Assembly: GCA_027067965.1 (NCBI GenBank)
Contig: JAMOUV010000027.1
Location: 1-64,000 of the forward strand
Reading direction: 5' to 3'
Origin: Flavobacteriales bacterium
GTDB lineage: Bacteria > Bacteroidota > Bacteroidia > Flavobacteriales > Flavobacteriaceae
Length of the DNA stretch: 64,000 bases
The notes beneath the pieces were generated by a model. The model searched no databases and was not told the origin of the DNA. It worked only from the letters and a program-made list of their open reading frames with translations. The position numbers and the translations under genes were made by a program. Below, in pieces: positions 54,967 to 64,000 of this stretch (its first letter is position 1; each line of letters begins with the position of its first letter).

Positions 54967-56343
54967 TTAATAAAGAATTTGTGAAAATTTTATTTTTTCT
55001 AATGAATATATTTTTTCTTTAATTAATTGACTTGCCCTATCGATTTTATTGATGTCTAAAGGAATACCTACTAAATGAATAATATTTTGAGTATGATTTA
55101 ACGCATAAGAAAATTTTATTTCCTTGCTCTCTACCTGTGTAGAAGGATAGCATAGAAAGCCATATTTGGCAGGTTGGTCAGAGAAAGACATATAACTCAT
55201 GATTTGATGCAAGTCCTTCCGGAATTCAGATTTTAAATCATCGCTCGAAGAAAATTTGTTGAGTAAATGCGACTTGTATTTGGCATCAACAAAAATATTT
55301 AACCGGGTTCCTTTCCGGTAAATACCGTCGGGTTCCAAGTGGCTTAATTCCCAAGTAAATCGGGTGGGGGACATTTGGCGGATTTTGTAATTTGGATAAA
55401 ATTTCCCACCTAGTTCCTTGCTAATTTCCATGAAAATATATTGCACATATTTTTCAAAAACTTCATTGAAATCCACACGCCAAGCTATTGCTTGACTGAA
55501 TTCTTTTTGCATGATTTTGTTGCCCTGTTTTTTTACTTCTTTGACCAAAGGTGGATCCGAATGCCGAATGATAAAGTGCTTGGTTTTAAGGCTGTTATGG
55601 AATTTTAATTTTGTTTCAAGATAATGCAGAAGGGGCTTAATACCATATTTCATTTCCGTAGGTGTGGCTGGGCCAAGTAATTCTTTTTTACATAGTTCAA
55701 ACACATATTTGATTTGCCCATATTCTTTATGATATTCTGAGAGAATGTTTTTTCGCACAGGAAATTTTAAACTGTTTTCAACTTTGTATTCACGCTGTAT
55801 ATATTTTTTCCAATTAACTTGTCCCTGAGGATGATCAAAAATTTTTTCTTCTCGATCAAATTTCACCCATTTATTTCGGGTCAGTTGGGCAAGTTTTTTA
55901 ACGAAAATCAAAGCTTCGTAATAAAAAGGTGGTTGAAAATTTCTGCCTGAAACCAAAGGAATGGAAGGCTTAAATTCCGCTTGAATGGACTGGTTAATTA
56001 AGTTAAGAATTTTGATATAATCCGTAAATTTCCCCTCCGTTCCATAGCGTGGCGATACGATAAAATCGCCTATTTGTTTGCCTGTATCGGGACTTCGCAA
56101 CGGAATAGCGCCTACAAACTCGGAGGACCTGAAGCGAAGACTTACATTTCGATCTGTTCCTTCCACCAAAGGGGTAACCCCTAAAAAATCAAGAAAAGGT
56201 TTGTTGTATTCAATAAATTTTTGAATATACTGGGCCATGTAACGCTTATCGGCTTTATGGAACCAATGCTTGCGCAAGTATTCCCCACTGAGCGCTTTGG
56301 AATATTCGGTGAGGCATGGTATTTCAAAGAAAACCTTCCTCAT
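54967..56343 (-). CDS. mcrC: McrC-like nuclease subunit of a type IV restriction system
   Basis: 458 residues. The C-terminal part has a PD-(D/E)xK-type active site: SHLEPDGIYRK then NIFVDAKYKSHL (about 350-378), with Asp and Asp-x-Lys. The N-terminal part (about 1-120) contains the strand-rich region seen in McrC-like proteins. It pairs with an AAA GTPase whose stop overlaps its start by one base, an McrB-McrC layout that cuts methylated DNA. The N-terminal half is not closely similar to E. coli McrC by eye. Confidence 0.8.
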   Translation of the reverse strand: MRKVFFEIPCLTEYSKALSGEYLRKHWFHKADKRYMAQYIQKFIEYNKPFLDFLGVTPLVEGTDRNVSLRFRSSEFVGAIPLRSPDTGKQIGDFIVSPRYGTEGKFTDYIKILNLINQSIQAEFKPSIPLVSGRNFQPPFYYEALIFVKKLAQLTRNKWVKFDREEKIFDHPQGQVNWKKYIQREYKVENSLKFPVRKNILSEYHKEYGQIKYVFELCKKELLGPATPTEMKYGIKPLLHYLETKLKFHNSLKTKHFIIRHSDPPLVKEVKKQGNKIMQKEFSQAIAWRVDFNEVFEKYVQYIFMEISKELGGKFYPNYKIRQMSPTRFTWELSHLEPDGIYRKGTRLNIFVDAKYKSHLLNKFSSSDDLKSEFRKDLHQIMSYMSFSDQPAKYGFLCYPSTQVESKEIKFSYALNHTQNIIHLVGIPLDINKIDRASQLIKEKIYSLEKIKFSQILY

Positions 56344-57785
56344 TATTCAACCAAAGATTTTCCTATTCTGTTTTGGAAATAGGCATTAAATTCTTCCTTG
56401 GCCGGCAAGAGCAATCCTTCTTGTAAATATTCCTTAATGAGCGGAAATAATTCATAGGTTATTCTGTTTTTCATCTCGCCATCATCTCGTGCAATAAAAT
56501 AGGCTTGTCCGGGTTGAAGGTTCAATTCATTGGATGAGGCATACCATTTAAAAATATCATCAAATCGTTCAAAATCTTTCTTATAAAATTTGTAGCCATT
56601 GGGCAAATCTCTTCTAGGAATAGACATGGGATAAAAGGTAAGCCACGCAAAGCGCCGACGCAGGGCAAAATCCACTACGGCAAGGCTTCTATCGGCCGTA
56701 TTCATGGTGGCTACCACATAAAAATTATCGGGTAATGTGGAAAGTTTCAAATCTGGGGTAATTTCTATTTTAATATCTGAATTTGTCCGTTGATATTCAA
56801 ACAAATAGAAAATAGGACCTAGGATATTGGAAAGATTGGCTCGGTTGATTTCATCAATTATAAGCAGAATATTTTCGTCCGAGTTTTGTAGGGCATATTC
56901 AAGGGCTTCAACAAATTTTCCTTTTACTTCTTCATAGGCTATATTTTCGGCATTTAATTTTGGTCTAATCCCCCAAATAAAATCCGAATAAGAAGTTTCG
57001 GCATGAAATTGTGTAAAAAAGGTTTGCACATTCAAATCCTGGGCCAGCAAATGAGCCATACGCGTCTTTCCGGTTCCAGGAGCGCCTTCCATGATGAGAT
57101 ATTTTCGTTGTAGCAACACATTTTTAATATCATCGCGGGACAATGTTTCAATGGGTCTTTTGATCTTGCTAATGCTCTCGGCAATGGCCTTGCGGTGACG
57201 GTCATTTGAGGCCCAATTCCTTAGTTTGGCATAGGCCGCCAAAAATCCTACTAAGTAATCTATGCTTTCATTTTCAATAATATCTCCATGCTCATCAATT
57301 TGAGGTTTTTCGATAATTTGACACGCAGGAAGCACTTTTTTATAAGTATCCAATGTTTTGCGAATAGAAACGATTTTTTCGTTTTGAAGAAAGAATTTAG
57401 GTAATGAGGTCTCGATATCCGAAAAATCCGTTTTACAAAAACTGTCCTCCTCTTTCATAATGGACTGAAACAACCGTCTTACGCCAGGATAAGTGGCCAG
57501 TTCAAAATCATTCTTAAAGCCCAAAGAGCCAATACCTAAACAAACCACCCAATACTTGGCATCTTCATCACCGGGAGAGGAAGGAAAAACTACAAAAGAA
57601 AAATCATGGTAAGGACCTGAGGGCTCTTCTTCGGGATGAATAAAACCAAAGTAGGCACCGCCAGTTTGAAATGCCTCAGGTTTTATATTCCGTCTCAGCA
57701 CATAATCTTTGACTACTTCATTGCTATTATCGGCACCAAATTCCCGGGCTTTTTGTTCGAGGTAGGTTATTATTTGGTCAATCAT
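56343..57785 (-). CDS. mcrB: McrB-like AAA+ GTPase
   Basis: 480 residues. The N-terminal ~215 residues are a target-sensing region I do not recognise. The AAA+ domain has Walker A EGAPGTGKTRMAH (about 235-247), the McrB signature FHAETSYSDFIWGIRPKL (about 262-279), Walker B LLIIDEINRANLSNILG (about 305-321), and the sensor VATMNTADRSLAVVDFALRRRF (in part, about 358-379). The NTADRS motif is characteristic of the McrB branch. It drives the McrC nuclease using GTP. Upstream 57786-57992 is AT-rich without a gene. Confidence 0.9.
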   Translation of the reverse strand: MIDQIITYLEQKAREFGADNSNEVVKDYVLRRNIKPEAFQTGGAYFGFIHPEEEPSGPYHDFSFVVFPSSPGDEDAKYWVVCLGIGSLGFKNDFELATYPGVRRLFQSIMKEEDSFCKTDFSDIETSLPKFFLQNEKIVSIRKTLDTYKKVLPACQIIEKPQIDEHGDIIENESIDYLVGFLAAYAKLRNWASNDRHRKAIAESISKIKRPIETLSRDDIKNVLLQRKYLIMEGAPGTGKTRMAHLLAQDLNVQTFFTQFHAETSYSDFIWGIRPKLNAENIAYEEVKGKFVEALEYALQNSDENILLIIDEINRANLSNILGPIFYLFEYQRTNSDIKIEITPDLKLSTLPDNFYVVATMNTADRSLAVVDFALRRRFAWLTFYPMSIPRRDLPNGYKFYKKDFERFDDIFKWYASSNELNLQPGQAYFIARDDGEMKNRITYELFPLIKEYLQEGLLLPAKEEFNAYFQNRIGKSLVE

Positions 57786-61390: not shown

Positions 61391-61689
61391 GGGATTTAAT
61401 TTGGTTTGGGGGAATCCTAATTTTTATATAAAATCCTTTTAAAATATTCTTATCGCAGATATCATGCAATAAAATCGGGAGGGAATTTTTATTTAAAGTC
61501 CCTCGCATGACACATAGTACAGCCGATATAAAATATTCATAAAAGTGCGGACAGAAAGGTGTTCAATTACAGAGAGATGATCTTAGGTTATAGACTTATT
61601 GAGTGCCAATAGCCCTGTCTCCGGCGCTTATATAAAATTGGCGGTGTTGAGTACACCGCCAAAGAAATAAAAAAGATTTTGCAAAAAGA
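61391..61689 (-). terminator. Gap before the array, with minus-strand terminator hairpin (61638-61662)
   Basis: No gene supported. Perfect 10-bp stem TTGGCGGTGT (61638-61647) and ACACCGCCAA (61653-61662), loop TGAGT. On the minus strand it is followed by TTTTATAT, so it is a terminator for transcripts coming leftwards out of the repeat array; on the plus strand no T run follows. It lies 28 nt left of the outermost, degenerate array repeat, the expected spot for the end of an array transcript. Confidence 0.65.
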
Positions 61690-61746
61690 TTGTTTTCAAA
61701 CTCTCACAGCGTTAGTGACCTATGGGCCCTCGCTCGGGCGCCCAAG
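61690..61746 (+). repeat. Degenerate outermost repeat of the array
   Basis: The right 20 bases (CCCTCGCTCGGGCGCCCAAG, 61727-61746) are intact and match every other repeat. The left part aligns with the 69-nt repeat class (CTCTCACAG, TTAGTGACC) but has many changes, and the GTCGCAGTGAGGTTG opening is gone. A decayed last repeat is what CRISPR arrays show at their leader-distal end. Confidence 0.7.
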
Positions 61747-61834
61747 GGTAATCGGGGCCTTCTGCAAGGCCTCGTGGCAACATCGCTGGGGTCGCAGTGA
61801 GGTTGTTCACAGAATCTCACAGAGTCAGTGACCC

Positions 61835-62336
61835 GTGGACCCTCGCTCGGGCGCCCAAGAATACGAGAAGGAGTGGAATGTTCCTTCTGAACTCTCTGCG
61901 TCGCAGTGAGGTTGTTCACAGAATCTCACAGAGTCAGTGACCCGTGGACCCTCGCTTGGGCGCCCAAGAAAGAAAATGCGACGCACAGCGCAAGCGATTT
62001 TTGAACCGTTGTCGCAGTGAGGTTGTCCACAGGAGTCTGTGACCCCTCGCTCGGGCGCCCAAGAAAAAATTGAAAAAAATGAAACACACGCGACATACCG
62101 CCTGGTCGCAGTGAGGTTGTTCACAGAATCTCACAGAGTCAGTGACCCGTGGACCCTCGCTCGGGCGCCCAAGCAGTACGCGTACATGATGGACTTCGGG
62201 TCCTACCGAGACATGTCGCAGTGAGGTTGTCCTGTAAGGACCCTGTGGGCCCTCGCTCGGGCGCCCAAGATCGTCTACCCTCACCATGATGAGGACGATG
62301 AGACTCTTTCTTCTAAGAGTCGCAGTGAGGTTGTCC
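61835..62336. repeat. 502-bp duplicated block of the array, first copy
   Basis: Identical over its length to 62737-63238 at a distance of 902 bp. It contains five variable segments and four whole repeats (including the CTTGGG variant). Left edge lies within a 69-nt repeat, right edge 18 nt into a 55-nt repeat. Confidence 0.85.
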
Positions 62337-62736
62337 TGTAAGGACCCTGTGGGCCCTCGCTCGGGCGCCCAAGGTGGTGAATTTCCCGAGCGAATCGGGG
62401 AGCGGAGTGAACCTGTCGCAGTGAGGTTGTCCTGTAAGGACCCTGTGGGCCCTCGCTCGGGCGCCCAAGTGCAAAGTTAAACAAACCATTTTAGTCCTTT
62501 TGTAGCAAGTGTCGCAGTGAGGTTGTCCACTGGAGTCTGTGACCCCTCGCTCGGGCGCCCAAGGTTCATTCGTATCTCCAAAACTGGGGACGGGGTGTAC
62601 CTTCTTATGTCGCAGTGAGGTTGTCCACTGGAGTCTGTGACCCCTCGCTCGGGCGCCCAAGACTATATACTATGTTTAAAAATTCTAAAGTTAAAGTAAG
62701 AACCTTGTCGCAGTGAGGTTGTCCTGTAAGGACCCT

Positions 62737-63238
62737 GTGGACCCTCGCTCGGGCGCCCAAGAATACGAGAAGGAGTGGAATGTTCCTTCTGAACTCTCTG
62801 CGTCGCAGTGAGGTTGTTCACAGAATCTCACAGAGTCAGTGACCCGTGGACCCTCGCTTGGGCGCCCAAGAAAGAAAATGCGACGCACAGCGCAAGCGAT
62901 TTTTGAACCGTTGTCGCAGTGAGGTTGTCCACAGGAGTCTGTGACCCCTCGCTCGGGCGCCCAAGAAAAAATTGAAAAAAATGAAACACACGCGACATAC
63001 CGCCTGGTCGCAGTGAGGTTGTTCACAGAATCTCACAGAGTCAGTGACCCGTGGACCCTCGCTCGGGCGCCCAAGCAGTACGCGTACATGATGGACTTCG
63101 GGTCCTACCGAGACATGTCGCAGTGAGGTTGTCCTGTAAGGACCCTGTGGGCCCTCGCTCGGGCGCCCAAGATCGTCTACCCTCACCATGATGAGGACGA
63201 TGAGACTCTTTCTTCTAAGAGTCGCAGTGAGGTTGTCC
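62737..63238. repeat. 502-bp duplicated block of the array, second copy
   Basis: Exact copy of 61835-62336. Its left edge falls inside repeat 62707-62761, whose insert begins as the 20-nt class but ends GTGGA like the 34-nt class. Its right edge falls inside repeat 63221-63273, whose insert begins TCCACAGGA as in an 18-nt class and ends GGACCCTGTGGG as in the 20-nt class. Confidence 0.85.
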
Positions 63239-63385
63239 ACAGGACCCTGTGGGCCCTCGCTCGGGCGCCCAAGCAAAATGGACAAATAACTGCGGAAAAA
63301 ATTATCCGCGATATGTGTCGCAGTGAGGTTGTTCACAGAATCTCACAGAGTCAGTGACCCGTGGACCCTCGCTCGGGCGCCCAAG

Positions 63386-63484
63386 CTGTTAAAATAGTAA
63401 TAGAAGGAGAATTTTTAAAAGTACCTCTTGTCGCAGTGAGGTTGTCCTGTAAGGACCCTGTGGGCCCTCGCTCGGGCGCCCAAG
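63386..63484. repeat. 99-bp duplicated unit of the array, first copy
   Basis: A 44-nt variable segment plus a 55-nt repeat, recurring exactly at 63636-63734 (250 bp to the right). The repeats just before the two copies differ (69-nt and 35-nt). Confidence 0.85.
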
Positions 63485-63635
63485 TAAAGTTTCCGAACAA
63501 AAGCCTCGGGGGCCGCCTTTTGGGTCGCAGTGAGGTTGCCCTCGCTCGGGCGCCCAAGCAAAATAACGACGGTACGCTGACGGGAAACCTGCGGGTAGAT
63601 GTCGCAGTGAGGTTGCCCTCGCTCGGGCGCCCAAG

Positions 63636-63734
63636 CTGTTAAAATAGTAATAGAAGGAGAATTTTTAAAAGTACCTCTTGTCGCAGTGAGGTTGTCCTGT
63701 AAGGACCCTGTGGGCCCTCGCTCGGGCGCCCAAG
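63636..63734. repeat. 99-bp duplicated unit of the array, second copy
   Basis: Exact copy of 63386-63484, preceded by a 35-nt repeat and followed by a new variable segment. Confidence 0.85.
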
Positions 63735-64000
63735 CGTACCCCGTTGGTATTCCGCCCTTTTACGCAGAAAAAAAGTCGCAGTGAGGTTGCCCTCGCTCGG
63801 GCGCCCAAGGTTAAAAGAAAATAACCTTCTCTCATTTGAAACAAGAAAAGACTGTCGCAGTGAGGTTGCCCTCGCTCGGGCGCCCAAGCCGAATGTGAAC
63901 GTAAATTCGAAAAAAAAATATCCGCGCTGTCGCAGTGAGGTTGCCCTCGCTCGGGCGCCCAAGAATATTCTTAGCCGGTGACCTGTTCACCGATAAGAAT

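Follow-up and report, generated by a model that had tools for sequence, protein, structure and literature searches.

Mobile elements of the IS200/IS605 and RAYT/REP kinds insert by a short one-sided motif, in one orientation and without target duplication, and have hairpin ends. Among the short palindromes of bacterial genomes, REPs (CGTC- and GTAG-tagged) and Rickettsia palindromic elements have been catalogued, and no dedicated transposase has been found for the CGTC REPs (PMC3733652). CRISPR repeats, on the other side, are as a rule regarded as unvarying, since they have to be recognised by Cas1-Cas2 and Cas6. The type III-B RT-Cas1 system of Marinomonas mediterranea MMB-1, which has the same gene content as the locus described here, RT-Cas1 included, also has a 35-bp repeat (PMC11014452). 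In the open-licence literature, our searches turned up no description of CRISPR repeats with hairpin inserts. Here we analyze an array in which repeats of 35, 53, 55 and 69 nt coexist, in contrast to the single repeat length of the RT-Cas1 arrays that we examined. Hairpins of the same kind as those in its older repeats occupy the loops of tRNA copies and palindromes scattered through the genome, and this suggests that tiny selfish hairpins have invaded the immune array.

Results

An RT-Cas1 locus with repeats of several lengths

The window, that is, the whole stretch of DNA analyzed, comprises the first 64,000 nucleotides of contig JAMOUV010000027.1 of a Flavobacteriales bacterium. Positions 61678-64513 of the contig, which extend beyond the window end, are occupied by a CRISPR array; its locus is of type III-B and has an RT-Cas1 fusion (Table 1). 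The array contains 30 repeats and one degenerate terminal repeat, with mostly unique spacers of 39-49 nt. Past the leader, the minus strand encodes, in this order, cas2, RT-Cas1, cas6, cmr6, cmr5, cmr4, cmr3, cmr2/cas10, cmr1 and a CorA-like gene. With cas10/cmr2, cmr1 and cmr3-6 adjoining the array, the locus is filed as type III-B on the basis of its genes. The fusion protein has 744 aa, with matches to the RT model at 4-272 and to Cas1 at 410-731, and Cas2 is encoded beside it. A constant repeat length together with unique spacers, a usual though not strictly defining feature of type III-B RT-Cas1 arrays, is not found here. The array is transcribed from right to left, and the repeat RNA reads CTTGGGCGCCCGAGCGAGGG^CAACCTCACTGCGAC. 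Since the leader is on the right and the degenerate terminal repeat on the left, the left side of the array is old and the right side new.

Regarding its distribution, the repeat has no occurrence elsewhere in the 2.05-Mb genome, so the observed pattern is not due to chance. A search at E 1e-60 did not find RT-Cas1 in the other 396 family genomes covered, and the repeat is missing from the other eight genomes of the genus, which makes the locus look acquired. Left-arm matches with one mismatch in 149 family genomes were isolated single hits. In viral contigs, the 15-nt left arm and the T-loop insert pattern (see below) gave single matches per contig, and the contexts of the insert pattern looked unrelated. 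The spacers had no match in phage or plasmid records, and three of them had none in viral contigs. Elsewhere in the window (54967-57785, minus strand), two adjoining genes resemble, as read by eye, a McrB-type AAA+ protein and a McrC-like partner, and may be a restriction system neighbouring the CRISPR locus. The window and the contig begin with 43 T (positions 1-43), perhaps a sequencing or assembly end artefact.

Table 1. Coordinates of the array, its inserts, duplicated blocks and leader (contig positions; repeats numbered from old to new)
Feature	Position	Strand	Remarks
CRISPR array, type III-B RT-Cas1 locus	61678-64000	-	part in the window; continues to contig position 64513
Degenerate terminal (oldest) repeat T	61678-61746	-	34-nt insert at 61693-61726 diverged, as is the left arm; right arm identical
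Insert A (34 nt), repeat 1	61806-61839	+	
Insert A, repeat 2	61915-61948	+	right arm with C>T
Insert B (18 nt), repeat 3	62026-62043	+	16/18 bases identical to dispersed palindromic element C10:328024-328041
Insert A, repeat 4	62120-62153	+	
Insert C (20 nt), repeat 5	62230-62249	+	
Insert C, repeat 6	62334-62353	+	
Insert C, repeat 7	62430-62449	+	
Insert D, repeat 8	62526-62543	+	
Insert D, repeat 9	62624-62641	+	
Insert E, repeat 10	62722-62741	+	point mutation or C/A recombinant; left edge of duplicated block
Insert A, repeat 11	62817-62850	+	copy of repeat 2
Insert B, repeat 12	62928-62945	+	copy of repeat 3
Insert A, repeat 13	63022-63055	+	copy of repeat 4
Insert C, repeat 14	63132-63151	+	copy of repeat 5
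Insert F (18 nt, near-perfect hairpin), repeat 15	63236-63253	+	matches D-loop insert of C10 tRNA-Ser pseudo-copies at all 18 bases but one; one extra base there
Insert A, repeat 16	63332-63365	+	
Insert C, repeat 17	63445-63464	+	
Insert C, repeat 20	63695-63714	+	copy of repeat 17
Five insert-free 35-nt repeats (63524, 63601, 63775, 63854, 63929)	63524-63963	-	
Duplicated block, first copy	61835-62336	.	identical to 62737-63238
Duplicated block, second copy	62737-63238	.	
AT-rich leader	64514-65066		553 bp, 26% G+C; cas2 next

All inserts split the repeat at one point

Inserts of 18, 20 or 34 nt are present in 18 of the 30 repeats, the other 12 being 35 nt long. Every insert splits the repeat at one phosphodiester, GTCGCAGTGAGGTTG^CCCTCGCTCGGGCGCCCAAG, i.e. 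GTCGCAGTGAGGTTG^CCCTC, between GTTG and CCCT. An earlier note on this DNA had claimed a single split point and a set of mutually related inserts, and both claims hold, with all the inserts it listed present at the same place. Insert A (34 nt) and insert C (TCCTGTAAGGACCCTGTGGG, 20 nt) occur six times each, insert B (TCCACAGGAGTCTGTGAC, 18 nt) and insert D (B with CACTGG, 18 nt) twice each, and insert F (TCCACAGGACCCTGTGGG, 18 nt) once. Insert E, which is C with A as its last base, occurs once and had been overlooked. Also overlooked were the degenerate terminal repeat with a 34-nt insert of its own, a C>T change that repeats 2 and 11 have in their right arm, and the continuation of the array outside the window, with seven further 35-nt repeats up to 64513. 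From old to new, the classes follow the order A A B A C C C D D E A B A C F A C - - C (a dash marks a repeat without insert), and then come ten insert-free repeats. The presence of inserts is strictly leader-distal, the ten newest repeats having none; with the leader on the right, the insert-bearing repeats are the older ones.

Part of this order is the product of duplication. A block of 502 identical nt with five spacers is present twice, repeats 10-15 including the duplication, and both of its ends fall inside inserts; the array also has two copies of spacer 11, identical over 119 nt. Insert class travels with the adjacent variable segment, at least as followed within the array, given that spacers 2-5 keep A, B, A and C in both copies. 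Once the duplicates were removed, the order of classes in the insert-bearing part did not differ from a random one, with 9 runs where 10.4 are expected (P = 0.24). The alternation of classes described previously is in part the result of duplication; what stands is an order no blockier than random, which simple copying of the neighbouring repeat would not give.

The assembly is a 33-contig draft and contains this long exact duplication, so one could argue that the inserts are an assembly error or the plain decay of old repeats. We regard this as highly implausible: all the inserts end at the same exact point, between unique spacers, and they are homologous to elements elsewhere in the genome (see below); decay, moreover, would not lengthen a repeat by 34 nt at a fixed site.

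A more serious alternative is that a single ancestral insert was inherited. The array would have been founded with a 69-nt repeat, each new repeat being copied from the leader-proximal one, and the insert would have shrunk and changed stepwise from 34 to 20 or 18 and finally 0 nt, with recombination shuffling the order and the genomic palindromes being at most the first source. Consistent with it, the oldest repeat carries a diverged 34-nt insert whose divergence is similar to that of its left arm, and this is better explained by a single ancient insert that was then inherited than by repeated entry; insert length tends to drop towards the leader; the CCC and DD runs look copied; and both the 502-nt block and spacer 11 are duplicated. 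Moreover, published ruler experiments on other CRISPR types show that, when the repeat changes in length on the leader side of the ruler, the whole change is duplicated with it (PMC6895254). However, inheritance would require a repeated, exact return to A and to C in an order that is not blocky, and a final deletion landing exactly on the normal 35-nt form. Inheritance from a single founding insert remains the main rival to repeated entry, and we consider it unlikely.

The insertion point is predicted to be the loop of a hairpin

When folded as single-stranded DNA, the plus strand of the 35-nt repeat gives a hairpin with the loop TTGC, and the inserts enter after TTG. The insertion point, whose position is fixed by the repeats themselves, is therefore predicted to be the apical loop of the repeat's hairpin. 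For inserts A, B, D and F, DNA folding predicts a base hairpin that persists and whose tip the insert extends; insert C folds otherwise and not as a loop extension. At the RNA level, the folding energies of the repeats were no better than those of shuffled sequence; the structural claim is accordingly based on the position of the inserts and on DNA folding. A predicted RNA stem beside the Cas6 cleavage site is retained with high probability in form B only. RNA structure as the cause of the insert series was rejected on these two grounds.

In all cases the inserts, lying in the loop, leave intact both arms and the 8-nt handle ACTGCGAC, which is common to the closest relatives. This would be expected if inserts were kept for tuning Cas6 processing or the stability of the crRNAs of old spacers. 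Such a function is nonetheless very improbable, considering that related systems lack inserts, that the stem by the cleavage site is kept with high probability in a single form, and that the newest repeats are insert-free.

Related arrays have repeats of constant length

The closest RT-Cas1 relatives show 51-55% identity and come from Flavobacteriales and Chlorobiota MAGs. The two closest relatives with clear arrays have repeats of ~35 nt with the same ACTGCGAC end, and apart from its inserts the repeat studied here is an ordinary RT-Cas1 repeat. We measured 738 repeats in 50 other RT-Cas1 arrays, taking arrays that adjoin RT-Cas1 genes and leaving out some, this one included, and found 2 that were off by more than 3 nt. 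The odd length in one of them (L087) was discarded as a false pairing. The other (L084, 8940-8994) is the terminal repeat of an unrelated RT-Cas1 array and has a palindrome-like CCCGCTGAAGCGAGGCAGG between CTAT and GTGGG, apparently an insert in the repeat's loop again. Given this constancy across the surveyed arrays, repeats normally have 35-37 nt and rarely contain inserts. As to whether the 35-nt repeats are ancestral or newest, a question left by the earlier note, they are the newest in this array, yet 35-37 nt is the normal length in related ones. In a separate observation, the motif TTTGCGAA(C/T)TTTT is present 2-4 times in twelve RT-Cas1 loci from Bacteroidota and Campylobacterota, lying between cas2 and the array at least in several of them; it is possibly a conserved leader element.

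The inserts have relatives among dispersed palindromes

Searches with the cores of inserts F and A gave no exact match in the genome outside the array, and the idea that the inserts have full copies elsewhere was discarded. The core search did lead to three further genomic sites, copies of an intergenic palindrome mosaic with the form GTCATT..GATCTC. One 157-nt mosaic element, with insert modules within it, gave 48 BLAST matches in the genome, in line with the many dispersed copies typical of REPs and Rickettsia palindromic elements. The pattern GTGACCNNNGGAC, taken from A, has 15 matches in the genome: six in A inserts, and the other nine all at coordinates of dispersed elements. The repeat containing A aligns over ~50 nt with two different dispersed elements (scores of 23 and 22, against a best of 18 in a 2.3 Mb background). 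Individual insert matches are weak, with values of 18 against a background of 15 for A, and of 14 against 14 for B.

In order to limit selection, we chose as test stretch one uninterrupted 409-kb piece, C10:1-409000, where the palindromic elements and the tRNA cluster described below make up 0.96% of the sequence. The best local match of 6 out of 6 insert types (A, B, C, D, F and that of the terminal repeat T) fell within this 0.96%, compared with 3 of 180 shuffled inserts; the six types are interrelated and do not count as six independent trials. The best match of the 35-nt core repeat was not in the palindromic elements of this stretch. Two of the element classes had first been found through inserts A and F, while the partner of B (C10:328024, 16/18) had not. 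As single matches are weak, the case rests on all of them falling in one small class of elements, partly found by insert searching. It also bears on inheritance from a single founding insert, since B (16/18) and F (all but one base) match outside elements better than they match each other (14/18).

Some of the dispersed elements are themselves filled and empty versions of one another. In the comparison of elements L169 and L209, the empty form reads GTCATTCCGAACGAATGTGAGGAATCTC, and the filled form reads the same with TCCACAGG..GTGGGG inside; the element at C10:95242 is a filled version of a short element found elsewhere in the genome, its insert again starting with TCCACAGG. Insert-like palindromes are thus nested inside dispersed GTCAT..ATCTC palindromes. 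The CGTC/GTAG tag and the CCA tail are absent from the dispersed elements, which read GTCATT..ATCTC, and the inserts of the CRISPR repeats and tRNA copies start with TTC or TCC and end with GGG, GGA or GAC.

The only Y1 transposase of the genome is a RAYT-like gene (C7:27287) with clusters of its own palindrome, CCGCGCGAATCCTTTCGCGTGG, on both sides, and not of insert sequences. Mobilisation of the inserts as REPs by this Y1/RAYT protein was rejected, as it lies among different palindromes.

Hairpins in the loops of tRNA-Ser pseudo-copies

When the array was compared by BLAST with the genome it comes from, four matches were obtained at C10:346974-347367, covering the left arm and insert F. Here, tRNA-Ser(TGA) pseudo-copies and GIY-YIG-like reading frames are clustered around a single intact tRNA gene; the GIY-YIG-like frames are in tandem, as seen in loci L201 (C10:345500-349000) and L203. 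The pseudo-copies contain TCCACAGGATCCCTATGGGA in the D-loop, between GGTTG and AATGC, a hairpin in the anticodon loop (CTTG followed by CTTTTCCCTACGGG..), and TCCACAGGACCTTTAGGG in the T-loop, between GGGTTC and AATCC, the latter being 18 nt long, the same length as F. The sequences in the D-loop and the T-loop closely resemble the 18-nt insert of the array. A further hairpin is found at the junction of the T-stem and the acceptor. The tRNA-Ser(CGA) pseudo-copies of C15 have a nested palindrome of ~60 nt at the same point of the T-loop, which in the third copy continues into a dispersed element. At this site (L159, 1600-2132, minus strand; C15, near 13.9 kb), an intact tRNA-Ser(CGA) is followed by three 3'-half copies. 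For both TGA and CGA, the intact tRNA-Ser genes that adjoin the pseudo-copies represent the empty sites, as expected of a mobile element, and Rfam recognised only the two intact tRNAs. According to these results, the allelic series that had been proposed is not private to the array; the inserts belong to a genome-wide palindrome family that is also present in the loops of tRNA pseudo-copies.

Discussion

The explanation that we favour, and consider probable, is that REP-like palindromes of the host entered the loop of the CRISPR repeat in the older repeats, and that recombination and the contribution of several donors gave the mixed classes. The native repeat would be of 35 nt, forming a hairpin with the loop TTGC, as related arrays and folding indicate. 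Short palindromes of the REP-like family would have entered between TTG and C in the leader-distal repeats, each insert then putatively forming a second hairpin on top of the first. The palindromes in tRNA-Ser pseudo-copy loops and inside dispersed palindromes make the CRISPR repeat, on sequence grounds, one of several hairpin-loop targets in the genome. Entry was probably by insertion of a single-stranded hairpin or by hairpin-to-hairpin template switching, 3' of a TT(C/G) motif and presumably without target-site duplication, in a manner resembling single-strand transposition of the IS200/IS605 kind.

One 34-nt form may have been present when the array was founded: in the terminal repeat, the insert and the left arm have reached a similar degree of divergence, so such a form was there early. 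Some insert-bearing repeats would have been copied during spacer acquisition, which the CCC and DD runs make likely; the other variants may have come from the genomic pool, and the array duplications seen here would have mixed the order. The leader-adjacent repeat is now insert-free, so all recent repeats are of 35 nt; this repeat either never took part or would have lost its insert. In a broader version of this scenario, which is possible and which we put forward tentatively, a loop-seeking hairpin of as little as 17-20 nt would enter the tips of other hairpins, namely those of the CRISPR repeat, the D-, anticodon and T-loops of tRNA copies, palindromes, and its own tip. Nested palindromes would grow in this way, and those in the CRISPR repeat would be amplified by spacer acquisition.

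An array that has apparently grown with 18-34 extra bases in the loop of its repeats shows what extra length may be acceptable to the integrase and the processing enzyme; its natural series of 35, 53, 55 and 69 nt is ready material for tolerance tests. Likewise, with empty and filled sites of tRNA copies in the same genome, the old question of how REP-like palindromes move becomes directly testable.

Compared with known systems, the inserts would share with IS200/IS605 and RAYT/REP all the insertion features named at the outset, from the one-sided motif to the hairpin ends. They differ in that no transposase is linked to them, the only Y1 protein being the RAYT amid other palindromes. The mitochondrial repetitive or double hairpin elements and GC clusters are also hairpins that spread in a genome, insert into genes for structured RNAs and are retained in the transcript (PMC2800124); these, though, belong to sponge, fungal and yeast organelles, are unrelated in sequence and have no CRISPR target. 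REPs and Rickettsia palindromic elements are, like the dispersed elements described here, short dispersed palindromes with many copies per genome, some of them within genes (PMC3733652). In outline, GTCATTCC..GGAATCTC, our elements come close to the CGTC REPs. In contrast to REPs, they start with TGTC or similar, end with CTC and not CCA, are mosaics of nested palindromes, and insert in the loops of other hairpins, including those of CRISPR repeats and tRNA copies.
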